This document shows positions 3,424 to 21,465 of a stretch of 24,185 bases of DNA, piece by piece (within the stretch, counting starts at the first letter, position 1; the number at the start of each line of letters is the position of its first letter). Source of the stretch: a virus. The notes below the pieces were generated by a model. That model was not told the origin of the DNA, ran no database searches, and saw only the letters and a program-made list of their open reading frames with translations. The DNA lies in the IMG/VR virus record IMGVR_UViG_3300032954_000524, positions 1 through 24,185 of that record. One strand, given 5' to 3'. Made by a program: the position numbers and the translations under genes.

Positions 3424-3724
3424 AAGCGAGCCGCAAATTGTGAAGCAGCGTTGTGGTTGAGTGAGCCGAAGTACGAGAAACAGCCCGCCGCCGAAGAATC
3501 TTCGTGAATCCCGAGTAAATCGTGACATATGAACTTGCGAGAAAACTGAATGAGCCGAGATCGGAGAAGCAGCATTTGTGCCGAGTGAGCCGCAAGCCAA
3601 GAATCCTCGCAATCTCGGAGCGAATCGCCCTTGACGAACCAGCGAAATAGAATGAACCGAAAAGGATGAACCTGCGAAGGATCAGAGTTGAGCCGTAAGT
3701 TACGAACTATCGACTTGAAGGAGC
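3424..3724 (+). repeat. TIGR-like dual-spacer array, upstream of tas
   Basis: Nine imperfect tandem units of about 35 nt fill most of the gap before the Tas-like gene. Each unit is a 10-nt edge repeat (consensus GAGYGAGCCG), an 8-nt variable segment A, a 9-nt loop repeat (consensus GAANCNGCG) and an 8-nt variable segment B. Loop repeats start at 3442, 3477, 3496, 3531, 3566, 3601, 3636, 3668 and 3704. A segments: caaattgt, aagtacga, ccgccgaa, tgacatat, agatcgga, caagccaa, cccttgac, aaaaggat, taagttac. B segments: ttgtggtt, (missing), tgaatccc, agaaaact, tttgtgcc, caatctcg, aaata, aaggatca, acttgaag. Degenerate units may extend back to about 3345. The array ends in GAGC followed by GTTTT. The period is not a multiple of three, so it is not coding. 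The layout matches TIGR arrays, whose tigRNAs are about 36 nt with two spacers. Confidence 0.85.
3718..3723 (+). promoter_or_regulatory. Candidate ribosome binding site of tas, inside the array's last edge
   Basis: AAGGAG lies 13 nt before the ATG at 3737. It is made from the end of the last B segment and the terminal edge repeat of the upstream array. If used, guide processing at this edge would cut the mRNA leader of the tas gene, which could couple array processing to tas expression. The spacing is longer than ideal. Confidence 0.35.
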
Positions 3725-3736
3725 GTTTTAAGAATC

Positions 3737-4816
3737 ATGTCCAAAGAACCAGAAAATCCCAACCCCAACCCTAACCCTGACCCCAATCCCAAGCCGCCAA
3801 AATCCCAGAAGCCGCTGCGGAAACCGCGCGAGCCAAAGCCGCCGCAGCCGCCGCTGCCGCCGTTGCCGCTGCCTCCTGGTGAACTCTTCATCCCCATCTC
3901 GAAAGCTTCCCGCGATCTGTCCCACGCTAAAAAAATGTCTATCGCCGAAGTCCGTTACGCGGTGGATCTCTATTATCAGATTCAAACCTTCCGCCAGGCC
4001 GCAGGGTTGCAGGTGCGCGCAGCGGATAAAGCTCAAACCCCCGGCCCCGAGCCCAGCGACTTTTTGTTGTGGACATTCAGCACCATGAAGACCGTCGAGG
4101 ATACCATCAAGCGCGCGCTCGATCGCTGGACGGACGATCAAATCGTGGGCCGGTGGGCTAAATCCATCGTGGGCATCGGACCCGTGATCTCGGCCGGGTT
4201 GCTGGCGCGCATCGATATGGGGATCGCGCTGCACGCCGGGCACATTTTCAAATTCGCCGGCCTGGACCCGTCAAGCAAGTGGGAGAAGGGCAAGAAACGC
4301 CCCTGGAATGCGGCGCTGAAGCGTCTCTGCTGGCTCATTGGTCAGAGCTTCATGAAAAACCGGAATCGCGAGGGCGACGTTTATGGGCACATTTACGCTG
4401 AGCGCAAGCAGTACGAGACCACGAAAAACGCCCTGGGCGATTACGCTGCACAGGCCCGGGAGAAGCTTGCCAATTTCAAAATTGGCAAGGACACCGAAGC
4501 ATGGGCGTGGTACTCGGGATGCTTTCCTGGGATCATCCTGGCCGATTGGATGAGCCTTGAGGAAACCGAGCGCGCCCGCCGCGTGAAAGAGATGCGCGGG
4601 CAGCCGGGATCGGGAGTGGAAATGCTCCCGCCAGCCAGAATCGAGCTGCGCGCTGAAAGATATGCGGTGAAGATGTTTTTGAGCCACTGGCACGCGGTCG
4701 CGTTCGAGGTGAGGTATCAGAAAAAGGCACCGCGGCCCTGGATTATCGAGTTCGGCGGGCATGTGGATATGATAGAGCCGCCGAATTGGCCCATGACAGT
4801 AGACAAGCCGTTCTAG
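3737..4816 (+). CDS. tas: TasA-like Nop/IS110-domain protein of a TIGR-Tas system
   Basis: This is a 359-residue protein. Residues 1-50 are a Pro/Asn/Lys-rich disordered tail. Residues 52-140 are helical. Residues 144-160 (VGIGPVISAGLLARID) form a helix-hairpin-helix followed by HIFKFAGLDPSSKWEKGKKRPWNAALKRLCW (169-199), the signature of the C-terminal domain of IS110 transposases. That domain is related to the Nop fold of box C/D RNP proteins. A C-terminal conserved-looking segment follows (LSHWHAVAFEV ... PPNWP, 315-352). The IS110 N-terminal DEDD/RuvC domain is absent and no HNH motif is seen, so it fits the nuclease-less TasA type. Both flanks carry dual-spacer arrays in the same orientation, which strongly favours an RNA-guided Tas protein over a transposase. 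It is expected to bind tigRNAs and pair them to both strands of a DNA target. Databases may label it transposase. Confidence 0.8.
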   Translation: MSKEPENPNPNPNPDPNPKPPKSQKPLRKPREPKPPQPPLPPLPLPPGELFIPISKASRDLSHAKKMSIAEVRYAVDLYYQIQTFRQAAGLQVRAADKAQTPGPEPSDFLLWTFSTMKTVEDTIKRALDRWTDDQIVGRWAKSIVGIGPVISAGLLARIDMGIALHAGHIFKFAGLDPSSKWEKGKKRPWNAALKRLCWLIGQSFMKNRNREGDVYGHIYAERKQYETTKNALGDYAAQAREKLANFKIGKDTEAWAWYSGCFPGIILADWMSLEETERARRVKEMRGQPGSGVEMLPPARIELRAERYAVKMFLSHWHAVAFEVRYQKKAPRPWIIEFGGHVDMIEPPNWPMTVDKPF

Positions 4817-4986
4817 AGGAAACAGCGAAATCTGTGAGCGAGCCGAAGTTGAAGAATCTGCGTATGAACGAGAGCGAGCCGTACATTCTGAATCAGCGTA
4901 CAACGAGAGCGAGCCGTACCTGTGGAACCAGCGCGCCACTTGAGAGTGAGCCGTAGGTGACGAACCCGCGTACTTCAGGAGCGAGC
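4805..4986 (+). repeat. TIGR-like dual-spacer array, downstream of tas
   Basis: Five units of 35-37 nt have the same edge and loop repeats as the upstream array and are better conserved. Loop repeats: GAAACAGCG (4819), GAATCTGCG (4854), GAATCAGCG (4890), GAACCAGCG (4925), GAACCCGCG (4962). Edge repeats GAGY+GAGCCG begin at 4836, 4872, 4907 and 4944; a terminal GAGCGAGC (4979-4986) runs into a T-run. A segments: ttctagag, aagttgaa, tacattct, tacctgtg, taggtgac. B segments: aaatctgt, tatgaacga, tacaacga, cgccacttga, tacttcag. The first unit starts inside the tas coding sequence: its AAGCCG encodes Lys-Pro and its first A segment contains the stop codon. Most variable segments are exactly 8 nt. 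Confidence 0.87.
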
Positions 4987-5535: not shown

Positions 5536-6219
5536 GTGAGCAAATCTTTCATTCGCGCCGTTGTCACCGCCGCCCGCCGCGAGCGCCTCACTTATGCTGC
5601 TTTTAACGAAGCCTGCAAACTCGCCCGCAAGCAGCTCCGCTTAACCCGGCCGCGCACTCCGCACCGCCTCCCCCAACTCATTCCCCCCGACGCCCTCGCC
5701 CGGTTCTACACTACGATCGATCGCGCCGGCAATCTCCAACATCAAATCATGCTGCGCCTGCTCTTTTACACGGCGATCCGCATATCCGAACTCTGCAACA
5801 TCGAAACCGGCCACGTTTCCCTGGAAGAGTGCAAAATCTTCATCGAACAAGGCAAAGGAGCGAAAGACCGTTACATCCTCTTCCCCGAATCCTTCCGCTT
5901 GCCCCTCACCGCCCACATGCGCGCCAACCCCCGCAACCGTTACCTGTTCGAGTCCAATCGCCGGTCCCGCTATTCCGAGCGCCAGGTGCAGCGCATCGTG
6001 AAGGATTACGCGCGTGAAGCCGAGATCCCGGTGAACGTTCACCCGCACCTGTTCCGGCACCAGTGTTTGAGCTTTTTAACGCGCGCCGGATTGAGCGATG
6101 CCCAGATCCAGCTTATCAGCGGGCACGCAAGCAAGAAATCTCTCGAAGTGTACCAGCATTTGACGCTGGAGGATGTGGCGGAAGATTACCAGGCGGCGAT
6201 GAGAAGGATAGGTGTGTGA
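5536..6219 (+). CDS. int: Tyrosine recombinase (phage integrase), short form
   Basis: This 227-residue site-specific recombinase of the lambda-integrase/XerD family starts with GTG. The catalytic set is complete: Arg82 in TAIRISEL, the beta-hairpin lysine in GKGAKDR (106-112), HLFR (His171, Arg174), His197 in SGH and the nucleophile Tyr206 in VYQHL. The N-terminal DNA-binding part is only about 50 residues, shorter than in usual integrases of about 300 residues, and there is no obvious arm-binding domain, so it may resemble Xer-like or integron-type enzymes. It would catalyse phage integration and excision, or possibly resolve dimers. I could not identify an attachment site; no tRNA gene is seen nearby. 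Confidence 0.88.
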   Translation: MSKSFIRAVVTAARRERLTYAAFNEACKLARKQLRLTRPRTPHRLPQLIPPDALARFYTTIDRAGNLQHQIMLRLLFYTAIRISELCNIETGHVSLEECKIFIEQGKGAKDRYILFPESFRLPLTAHMRANPRNRYLFESNRRSRYSERQVQRIVKDYAREAEIPVNVHPHLFRHQCLSFLTRAGLSDAQIQLISGHASKKSLEVYQHLTLEDVAEDYQAAMRRIGV

Positions 6220-8971: not shown

Positions 8972-10204
8972 ATGGATCTCGCTTTTTACAACGACAATGA
9001 CCCCTATTGCTGCCGATGGCTCGAAAGTCTCATCTCCGCTGGAGTTCTCCCTAACGGCGTCGTTGATTGCCGCCCGATCCAGAAAATCAAGCCAATCGAG
9101 CTCGCCCCTTACACCCAAGTCCATCTCTTCGCCGGGATGGGCGGATGGCCCTACGCTCTCGCCCTCGCCGGATGGCCCGCATCCCGCCGCGTCTGGACCG
9201 GCTCCTGTCCATGTCAACCTTTTTCCGTTGCCGGAAAGCGCGAAGGCACCCGCGACAAACGTCACCTCTGGCCGGTTATGCGCAATCTCATCCGGGACGC
9301 CGCCATCACCAAGCCTGCAACAATCTTTGGAGAACAGGTTGCGAGCAAGGCTGGACGTGAATGGTTCTCTGGAGTACGGGTTGATCTGGAAAAGCTGGGC
9401 TATGAAACGGGGTGCGCCGATTTGTGCGCTGCGGGCGTCGGCGCGCCGCACATCCGGCAAAGGCTTTACTGGGTGGCCCAGCGCAAGGGTCAGCGATGCG
9501 GGGAAAGCGGTACGCTCAACGGAAGGGGCACTGGCGGAAGTGAAACGGAAGGGTGGCCCGCAAGATTTGGGTTGCGCGGTAATGTTGACGGGCTGGCCCA
9601 GCGCACAGGCGCGGGATTACCGCAGCGGCAAAACGAAAATGGATTACGGGAACTCCCGGCCACTGAGCGAGATTGTGCAATTAGCGGGGTGGGCGTCGCC
9701 CAACGCGATCCCGGCGAACCGGGGCGGCTTGCAACGCAACCCCCAAAAAGCTCTCAACCGGAGAACGGAAGGGCACATGCTAAATCTGGATGATCAGGTG
9801 GTACTGGCAGGCTGGCCCTCCCCAATGGCGAGCACCCCAGGCACCGATTCCTACAATCCAGCGAGCAACAACGACAACAGCCGAAAGACGTCGCGGTTAG
9901 CGGGTTGGGCAACAGTACACATGGGGAGTTCTCTAACCCGCACCAAGTACGGCAAGCAACAATTGCCCAAACCCCACCCCCCGGACTCTCACGGCAATAC
10001 TGGGATGCCTGGGAAGCCCTCTACTGCCTCGACCACGCTTACCGCCGCACTAAACCCGGAGTTCACCCTCTGGCTCATGGGGTACGATCCCGTCTTCCTG
10101 TCCTACGCGCCTTAGGAAACACGCTTTGCATTCCCCTCGCCGTCGAGTTCATCTGTTCTTTTCTTGAAGCGGAAGCGAATATTACGGGCGTAAAGCGGGC
10201 GTAA
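8972..10204 (+). pseudogene. dcm: C5 cytosine DNA methyltransferase interrupted by in-frame TGA
   Basis: Frame from 8972: motif I FAGMGG (53-58), motif IV GSCPCQPFS with catalytic Cys81, motif VI as FGEQV (119-123), and motif VIII GAPHIRQRLYWVA (157-169). The variable target-recognition region then runs to a TGA at 9791-9793 (residue 274). Reading on in the same frame to 10204 there is no other stop, and the end has PLAHGVRSRLPVLRALGNTL, the motif X region of this family. So a methyltransferase of about 410 codons is cut by a single stop. The 273-residue product lacks motif X and may be inactive, unless the stop is read through, the two parts complement each other, or the TGA is a sequence error. 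The enzyme would methylate phage DNA against host restriction. Confidence 0.75.
8997..10115 (+). CDS. GWP-repeat protein overlapping the methyltransferase in another frame
   Basis: This 372-codon frame is offset by +1 from the methyltransferase and has no stop throughout. Its product carries WKSWAMKRGAPICALRASARRTSG, then five GWP/GWA segments (FTGWPSARVSD, LTGWPSAQARD, LAGWASPNA, LAGWPSPMAS, LAGWATVH) and ends LNPEFTLWLMGYDPVFLSYAP. I recognise this pattern from phage proteins often annotated near cytosine methyltransferases. The first 160 residues coincide with the methyltransferase catalytic region. Either it is an overprinted gene or a well-known shadow frame; staying open across the place where the methyltransferase frame is broken argues for selection. 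The start is uncertain and could be further downstream. Confidence 0.45.
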   Translation: MTPIAADGSKVSSPLEFSLTASLIAARSRKSSQSSSPLTPKSISSPGWADGPTLSPSPDGPHPAASGPAPVHVNLFPLPESAKAPATNVTSGRLCAISSGTPPSPSLQQSLENRLRARLDVNGSLEYGLIWKSWAMKRGAPICALRASARRTSGKGFTGWPSARVSDAGKAVRSTEGALAEVKRKGGPQDLGCAVMLTGWPSAQARDYRSGKTKMDYGNSRPLSEIVQLAGWASPNAIPANRGGLQRNPQKALNRRTEGHMLNLDDQVVLAGWPSPMASTPGTDSYNPASNNDNSRKTSRLAGWATVHMGSSLTRTKYGKQQLPKPHPPDSHGNTGMPGKPSTASTTLTAALNPEFTLWLMGYDPVFLSYAP

Positions 10205-19994: not shown

Positions 19995-21019
19995 ATGAAC
20001 TCGCCCTCTCCCTCGCCCACACCCTCACCCTTGACCCCTTCCCCTCCCCGGACTACTCCATCATCCGCACTCCCGCCGAACTCACCGCTTACCTTTACTC
20101 CGGCCGTGACGGATACCGCGACTCCCTCAACCCACGCCCCATCATCGCCGAAGACACCGAATCCCTCCCCGCGCCTAGCCGAGAACCCTACTGCCTCACG
20201 TTCTCCATCTGCCCTGGCACCGGGCGCCTCATCTACGTTCGCGATCACGATTTAATTGCGCGTTACCGCGACTGGCTCACCGTCTGGCACCCTCATCAAC
20301 TCTTCCACAATTACCTGCACGATTCCGTAATCTTCAAGCAGCTCTCCTTACCCGTTGACCATTTCACCGATACCATGGTGCGCGCTTACAACTTATGCTT
20401 GGGCGGCGGCGGCGATGCGGAAGACGATGAGTCCCGCGCCGGCCGCGGCTTACTCAGCCTCAAAGTCCTCGCCTGGCGCCATCTGCACATGCGCATGACC
20501 AGCTTTCAGGACACCGTGCACCCGCACTCCATTCCCTACGCCCTCGCCTGGCTTGAATCCGCATGCTCTCTCCTCACCCCTGCCCCGCCGCGCAAAACCT
20601 GCACCTGCGGCCACTACCGCGACACTCATGCGCCGCGCGGCAAAACCGGCAAGGTGATGGGAGCCTGCACGCAATGCGGCTGCCCCCGCTACAAGCAAGG
20701 GAAAGTGGCGGCAAAACCCGCAGAGGATAAGCAAGCCCAGCTCCTTTACACCAAGCTCAACCGTCTCACCGACTCCCTGCGCGCGCAGGAAACAGACCCG
20801 GAAACGGGGCAGCTCATCGACCCGTGGAAGCGGTACAAAGGCTGGCACGATTGGGACCGGGAAATGCTCGAAGGCGCGCTCGGGCCAATCCCTCAACCCT
20901 CCATCGCGTATGTTCCCGAGGAGGAGTTGTGTAATTACGCGATCCGTGATGCGGATGCAACGCTGCGGCTGTATCTGTACATGCGCAGGCTCAAGCCGTG
21001 GATTTTTTACCAACGATGA
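19991..21019 (+). CDS. DEDDy 3'-5' exonuclease (PolA-type proofreading domain) without polymerase
   Basis: This is a 342-residue protein. ExoI: IIAEDTES (51-58; Asp55, Glu57). ExoII: HNYLHDSVIF (106-115; Asp111), then TDTMVRAYNL. GLLSLKVLAWRHL (153-165) is the usual helix, and ExoIII is YAIRDAD (316-322; Tyr316, Asp320). This is the proofreading domain of family A polymerases. A zinc-ribbon-like insert (CTCGHYRDTHA ... CTQCGCPRYKQ, about 208-236) breaks the domain. The gene ends right after ExoIII, where the polymerase domain would start; none lies downstream in the window. It may be a separate exonuclease subunit or pair with a host or distant polymerase. Confidence 0.78.
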   Translation: MNELALSLAHTLTLDPFPSPDYSIIRTPAELTAYLYSGRDGYRDSLNPRPIIAEDTESLPAPSREPYCLTFSICPGTGRLIYVRDHDLIARYRDWLTVWHPHQLFHNYLHDSVIFKQLSLPVDHFTDTMVRAYNLCLGGGGDAEDDESRAGRGLLSLKVLAWRHLHMRMTSFQDTVHPHSIPYALAWLESACSLLTPAPPRKTCTCGHYRDTHAPRGKTGKVMGACTQCGCPRYKQGKVAAKPAEDKQAQLLYTKLNRLTDSLRAQETDPETGQLIDPWKRYKGWHDWDREMLEGALGPIPQPSIAYVPEEELCNYAIRDADATLRLYLYMRRLKPWIFYQR

Positions 21020-21465
21020 GCCTTCGTATCGTACCACTCACTTTGAAGCAGGCCAATCAACTAGTGGGTGAATGGCACAGGCATCACAAACTTGCAATCG
21101 GACATCGCTGGTCAATTGGTGTGATGGAAAACAATGAGCTTGTAGGAGCCGCGATCATTGGACGTCCTGTTGCGCGCATGACTCACCCTTACGAAGTAGC
21201 GGAAGTCGCGCGTCTTGTAACAAACGGTCACCGTAATGCTTGCTCTAAATTATACGCGGCTTGTGCGCGAGCTGCACAAGCAATGGGATTTAGAGAGATT
21301 CAAACTTTCATACTGGAAACCGAAGACGGCACATCTCTGCGTGCGGCAGGTTGGATAGAAGATTTAGAACGTTCATGTGGTGGGGATTGGAACCGTGTAT
21401 CCCGGAACCGTAGCAAGAACCAGCCACAAGGCCCGAAGCGCAGGTTTTTCAAGTTGCTTAATTAA
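21016..21465 (+). CDS. XF1762-like protein with GNAT-type fold
   Basis: I choose the ATG at 21016, which overlaps the exonuclease stop (ATGA), giving 149 residues. The order LTLKQANQLVGEWHRHHK, WSIGVMENNELVGAAIIGRPVAR, YEVAEVARLVTNGHRNACSKLYAACARAAQAMGFREIQTFILETEDGTSLRAAGW matches the phage XF1762 family, which looks like an acetyltransferase fold (V/I strand, RL..N..RN....L..A). The substrate is unknown. Its end overlaps the minus-strand HTH gene by 8 nt, so the two are convergent. Confidence 0.75.
   Translation: MSLRIVPLTLKQANQLVGEWHRHHKLAIGHRWSIGVMENNELVGAAIIGRPVARMTHPYEVAEVARLVTNGHRNACSKLYAACARAAQAMGFREIQTFILETEDGTSLRAAGWIEDLERSCGGDWNRVSRNRSKNQPQGPKRRFFKLLN

Follow-up and report, generated by a model that had tools for sequence, protein, structure and literature searches.

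We analysed a locus in a virus record of IMG/VR (IMGVR_UViG_3300032954_000524) of 24,185 bases, the whole of which is called the window below. A gene for a Tas protein, tasA, lies there between two arrays of short alternating repeats, both on the gene's own strand. The features of the locus are:

3424-3725, + strand: upstream TIGR array, with 9 loops, 8 recognisable full edges and a 3'-truncated edge GAGCG at 3721-3725
3477-3504, + strand: damaged unit of that array, with loops GAAACAGCC (3477) and GAATCTTCG (3496) at a distance of 19 nucleotides (nt), the intervening edge lost
3737-4816, + strand: tasA, encoding a Tas protein of 359 residues with a Nop domain and no nuclease domain
4801-4986, + strand: downstream TIGR array, with 5 loops, a first edge-like repeat AGACAAGCCG and, at its end, a truncated edge GAGCGAGC (4979-4986) followed by TTTTT

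Each array unit consists of an edge repeat (GAGYGAGCCG, 10 nt), a first spacer (A, 8 nt), a loop repeat (GAANCNGCG, 9 nt) and a second spacer (B), which is mostly 8 nt and in some units 9 or 10 nt long. An earlier note on this DNA, made from its letters alone, had proposed fourteen units specifying guides (tigRNAs) of about 36 nt. The dual-spacer repeats are there, but units measure about 35 nt (10+8+9+8; 36-37 in some) and not a strict 36; the number fourteen holds for the loops (nine upstream and five downstream), while an identifiable 5' edge is found in 13 units, one edge being missing through a deletion of ~16 nt between 3485 and 3496.

The exact edge sequence occurs six times on the + strand of the window, each time inside the arrays, and the loop has 13 exact copies, eight of them in arrays. 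With a few mismatches allowed, the two array regions contain 8 + 4 = 12 pairs of edge and loop separated by 8 nt, against a mean of 0.26 and a maximum of 3 when these regions were simulated 2000 times with a first-order Markov model. The arrays are therefore not a product of chance, and they flank the gene just where the earlier note had placed them.

Upstream repeats are degenerate (GAGTAAATCG, GAGCGAATCG and GAATGAACCG; loops GAATCCTCG and GAACTATCG), and downstream repeats are perfect and regular. The downstream array begins within the 3' end of tasA, with AGACAAGCCG (4801-4810), a first spacer A (TTCTAGAG) that includes the TAG stop codon of the gene, and the loop GAAACAGCG (4819). Both arrays end with a truncated edge and a run of T's (GAGCG-TTTT at 3721, GAGCGAGC-TTTTT at 4979), and a hairpin scan found no terminator hairpin at these ends. 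Edge and loop have GA...CG at their ends almost throughout; the loop ends in GCG and the edge in CCG, a box C-like match of two of three bases. A CRISPR-Cas array was considered and rejected, as one long repeat (25-36 nt) would be expected there and the window has two different repeats of 9-10 nt with 8-nt spacers.

The TasA protein and its known counterparts

The open reading frame (ORF) of tasA is intact, and all residues invariant in a 35-sequence alignment of its family are present. A phmmer search of PDB sequences retrieved TaTasR as the best match (9mty, 3e-16), then TasH (21kl, 2.8e-5) and then IS621. As foreseen by the earlier note, the protein would otherwise be annotated as a transposase: its sole strong family match is PHROG 4285 ('transposase', 1e-35). 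Pfam yielded a weak, sub-threshold match to Transposase_20 (the IS110 C-terminal domain), none to HNH or RuvC at E<=1, and none to Nop.

An AlphaFold2 model built on the 35-sequence alignment, which replaced a poor earlier model from 6 sequences, has a mean pLDDT (predicted local distance difference test) of 82.5. Each of the 11 Foldseek matches below 0.001 is a TasH or a TasR, and the Z scores of VIA-align are 19.9 for TasH, 18.8 for TasR, 13.6 for IS621 and 7.3 for the Nop domain of Prp31. The Nop-like Tas domain that had been predicted is thus present in the model, with TasH and TasR ahead of the IS110 recombinases. This Tas-type core spans residues 66-353; the N-terminus (~residues 1-50) is rich in proline, of low confidence and unstructured, and a private insertion of 33 residues (262-294) is missing from nearly all relatives. 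Since no HNH or RuvC domain is found, the protein is a TasA, the nuclease-less kind that the earlier note had supposed, and we consider the identification of the locus as a TIGR-TasA system of a phage almost certain. It is ordinary in kind, the family having been described in 2025, and divergent in detail, namely in its 35-nt units, 9-nt loops, degenerate first array and 33-residue insertion.

The TIGR-TasA system of Flavonifractor plautii (FpTIGR; Faure et al. 2025, PMC12045711) likewise has a solo Nop-domain Tas without nuclease, flanking edge/loop arrays and two short spacers per unit, and resides in a phage. From systems of this type the window differs in the four traits just listed, in loops that end in GCG, in the Pro-rich N-terminus and in that a terminator hairpin was not found; it adds a divergent member to TIGR-TasA. 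TIGR-TasH of Salicola phage CGphi29 (SpTIGR) has the same RNA-binding/dimerisation fold and 8-nt spacers as the window, and its edge, AAGCGAGCCA, resembles GAGYGAGCCG; the fold is also that of TIGR-TasR (TaTIGR), whose structure was deposited as 9MTY (PMC12045711). Unlike both, the window protein has no HNH or RuvC nuclease domain. The C-terminal RNA-binding domain of IS621, one of the IS110-family RNA-guided recombinases, is related, but IS621 has a DEDD domain that the window protein lacks, and one bridge RNA in place of guide arrays. The likeness to box C/D small nucleolar ribonucleoproteins (Nop5 / Prp31) is distant and concerns the Nop domain, as measured with Prp31; neither a fibrillarin-recruiting domain nor a kink-turn RNA was seen in the window.

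Related loci and the turnover of their spacers

We collected 59 related loci from IMG/VR scans and two from genome contigs, one in Acidobacteriaceae KBS 96, where it belongs to a prophage with its own integrase, and one in a Pyrinomonadaceae metagenome-assembled genome. Dual-repeat arrays are found in more than 50 of the 59 viral relatives, and their units are mostly of strictly 36 nt (10-nt edges and loops, 8-nt spacers). Edge and loop end alike in these loci, with CCA/CCA in most and CCG/CCG in L012, L014, L015, L034, L045 and L062, in agreement with the co-variation of the two repeats published for TIGR arrays. L012 and L014 are also the nearest relatives of the window TasA, at 50-52% identity.

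Comparison of arrays in related phages, proposed by the earlier note, showed the same arrays with spacers that vary even where TasA is 97-99% identical: from one to about half of the units are common to such loci, others differ by 1-2 bases and others are unrelated. This evidence of turnover comes from the relatives, as the searches retrieved nothing closely related to the window itself. A search for a phage backbone shared by the window and the relatives' contigs gave only TasA and three weak gene matches, which argues that the cassette moves between unrelated phages. Among 396 Acidobacteriota genomes, TasA is clear in KBS 96 only. The closest counterpart of the window's helicase belongs to a phage of Tunturiibacter (Acidobacteriota), which hints weakly at a host among the Acidobacteriota.

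In related tigRNAs that drift apart (arrays L019-L047), spacer position 4 is the least variable (3 of 116 variable positions), followed by position 1 (6). This constancy might reflect a seed, but the wrong-pair control differs only weakly. Drift with a codon period gave p = 0.05, on which we make no claim, and targets of a palindromic kind (A similar to B) were not above permutation.

Several further loci deserve mention. Directly upstream of a nuclease-free tasA in L009 (2658-2960), we recognised by eye a small ORF resembling an HNH endonuclease, which could be a separate partner nuclease. In Mycobacterium phage BPBiebs31 (L198, 2440-2800) and Gordonia phage Morrissey (L202, 2480-2780 and 3580-3770), palindromic units with CCA/CCC boxes lie beside a Tas-like gene annotated as transposase or hypothetical; they look like stem-loop TIGR arrays, and since laboratory strains serve as hosts, the two phages may suit as model systems. 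Finally, an unannotated Tas gene of Microcystis phage Mvi-JY20 (L200) is followed downstream by a dual-repeat TIGR array at 3620-3850 (ATGCGAGCC / ACGAAACCC).

Predicted targets of the guides

According to the published rule, cleavage leaves 8-nt 3' overhangs and falls 5' of the base that pairs with position 5 of the spacer; the target strand must therefore read spacer A followed by the reverse complement of spacer B, with a gap of 0-2. As controls we used the opposite arrangement (reverse complement of A, then B) and the pairing of each B with the A of the next unit.

The array of the KBS 96 prophage has five full units, each of which was searched exactly in the 6.69-Mb chromosome. The target of tigRNA1, TAAAAGCAGAATCGAA, is matched once, at 16 of 16 positions with gap 0 (6329962-6329977; reversed control 0), whereas 0.0009 matches are expected from base composition and 0.004 from an order-3 Markov model, the sum for all five units, at gap 0, being ~0.016. 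Nucleotides 26-41 of an 86-codon HTH_17 gene (codons 9-14) form the site; this gene is divergent from an XRE repressor beside a tyrosine integrase. All three are part of a 10.2-kb element (L151:12150 to L152:2430, ~6.3220-6.3321 Mb). It has further genes for a small terminase, an HK97-type capsid and a prohead protease; no large terminase, portal or tail genes were seen in its ORF lists. It is flanked by two copies of 26 bp from the 3' end of tRNA-Glu, at 6321951 and on the integrase side, ~10.15 kb apart. Judged by this gene content and these repeats, the element looks like a capsid-encoding phage satellite; no relatives of its 257-residue protein were found in IMG/VR. Further, 0.9 kb from the tigRNA1 site and still within this element, tigRNA4 matches at 14 of 16 positions, with mismatches in the two outermost bases only; such a position would arise by chance with a probability of ~0.005 for that unit and ~0.02 over four units. 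In KBS 96, a TIGR-TasA prophage thus shares its chromosome with a satellite-like element that one of its guides matches exactly. This argues for competition between elements, and if the match holds, the biological role can be tested by ordinary genetics.

The most widely shared tigRNA, present in six arrays, predicts the target TCGAACAATATGGTTT, which occurs in 33 stretches of IMG/VR. Fourteen of these fall at one homologous site, with the motif [AV]IEQYG or AVEQYG, of a protein of 335-350 residues, in five lineages whose flanks have diverged. The protein is labelled single-strand DNA-binding protein (PHROG 1192), and we take it to be T4 gp32-like. The five genes have few other 16-mers in common, and were themselves collected by the TCGAACAATATGGTTT 16-mer. 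None of the TIGR-carrying contigs has a gp32-type gene. The result is suggestive of a guide aimed at T4-type gp32, with the proviso that the number of matches could be inflated by how common T4-type phages are in the database.

Other searches gave little. Scans of IMG/VR with single 16-mers are mostly noise: the KBS 96 site has 33 matches there (~20 unrelated, plus one redundant prophage group), GAGATTGCTCATACCA has 14, with no clear single gene beyond a small 58-residue ORF in three variants, and TGGTCCCATGGATTTT has six, three of them copies of one site. All tigRNAs together show no excess in 0.6 Mb of viral loci that had been fetched as IMG/VR target matches. For the guides of the window, 1.79 Mb of collected DNA contain four one-mismatch matches (one locus, present four times) against two in the control, which amounts to no signal. 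The target of the unit at 4944 (W13, TAGGTGACCTGAAGTA) has seven matches in IMG/VR, all at one site resembling a T4-like large terminase (L256-L262); the contigs are near-identical and come from several samples, so that the matches are not distinguishable from a single chance match.

Proposed function and its alternatives

Published work on TasA, TasR and TasH describes processing to 36-nt guides and pairing with both DNA strands, as well as strong DNA bending for TasR, and from it we infer tigRNA processing and dual-strand binding at this locus. Transcription of the arrays would occur together with that of tasA, and cleavage inside the edge repeats would release guides of ~35 nt, whose paired box D-like (GA) and box C-like (CG) ends of edge and loop would be bound by a TasA dimer. 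Each spacer would then pair with a different DNA strand, B at a site adjacent to that of A, the target strand reading as in the searches above. Binding by the nuclease-free TasA would bend the DNA, and transcription or replication may be blocked there. The likeliest aim would be mobile elements that compete for the same host, such as satellites and other phages.

RNA-guided DNA binding appears probable to us as the activity of the locus. For its direction against rival mobile elements we see about even chances, and the blocking of rivals, like the activity of the window's own array, is put forward by inference only. As an overall explanation, a TIGR-TasA locus for nuclease-free, RNA-guided blocking of competing mobile elements is the best we have, and we hold it with moderate confidence. 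A more general proposal, which we make tentatively and at slightly less than even chances, is that phage TIGR-TasA arrays are collections of guides against rivals. As a superinfection or anti-satellite system, they would silence regulatory or essential genes belonging to satellites or to other phages of the same host: the early HTH_17 regulator of the co-resident satellite-like element in KBS 96, and T4-type gp32 in the case of a freely exchanging group of phages. Spacers would be renewed by gain, loss and point drift. In PMC12045711 the natural targets of TIGR-Tas and the role of nuclease-free TasA are given as unknown; competition between elements, aid to an integrase and regulation are named as open options, and satellites are not mentioned.

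Several observations weigh against the proposed blocking of competitors. The window's own spacers are without convincing target, and the evidence for targets was obtained with relatives (44-49% identical), in few tests. The other four KBS 96 tigRNAs have no exact match in the chromosome (reversed controls 0), and near sites of tigRNA4 number three genome-wide, the same as in the reversed control, so that only the position of its site in the element is notable. In addition, the window has a degenerate upstream array and a TasA on a long branch among the relatives, and this copy could therefore be decaying or diverging.

One alternative, which we consider unlikely, is that TIGR-TasA acts on genes of the phage itself or of its host, as an RNA-guided repressor or as an aid to an integrase. 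Gene regulation and help to an integrase are both raised as options in PMC12045711, and a tyrosine recombinase gene does lie at 5536-6219, shortly downstream of the second array. Moreover, tigRNA3 of KBS 96 matches 15 of 16 positions at a site between a divergent pair of chromosomal genes, but this is near chance level (reversed control 2). When 694 distinct tigRNAs were searched in 1.45 Mb of DNA, for the most part complete contigs of the phages that carry them, there was no excess of self-targets with up to one mismatch (71 matches, against 58, 76 and 84 in controls), which argues against full-length guides regulating the phage's own genes; the guides of the window match their own contig with two mismatches at best.

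Somewhat less likely still is that the window holds a decaying or inactive TIGR locus whose array makes no working guides. Its degenerate edges and loops, the missing edge, the units of 35 nt and loops of 9 nt (36 and 10 in the relatives), the long TasA branch and the private insertion would all fit, but the ORF is intact with every family-invariant residue in place, the downstream repeats are perfect and regular, and almost all repeats retain the GA...CG ends, which would be expected if TasA and repeats are co-adapted. That the gene is an IS110-family transposase and the repeats near it are unrelated, a reading to which the PHROG 4285 label and the weak Transposase_20 match would point, is already contradicted and highly improbable: the match covers the C-terminal domain alone, with ~50 disordered residues and no DEDD catalytic domain ahead of it, fold and sequence are nearer to TasH and TasR than to IS621, and the same dual-repeat arrays recur in more than 50 relatives.

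Elsewhere in the window, a C-5 cytosine methylase is encoded at 8972-9793, and a Mom-like protein (PF25680), possibly for a DNA base modification against restriction, at 20998-21465.
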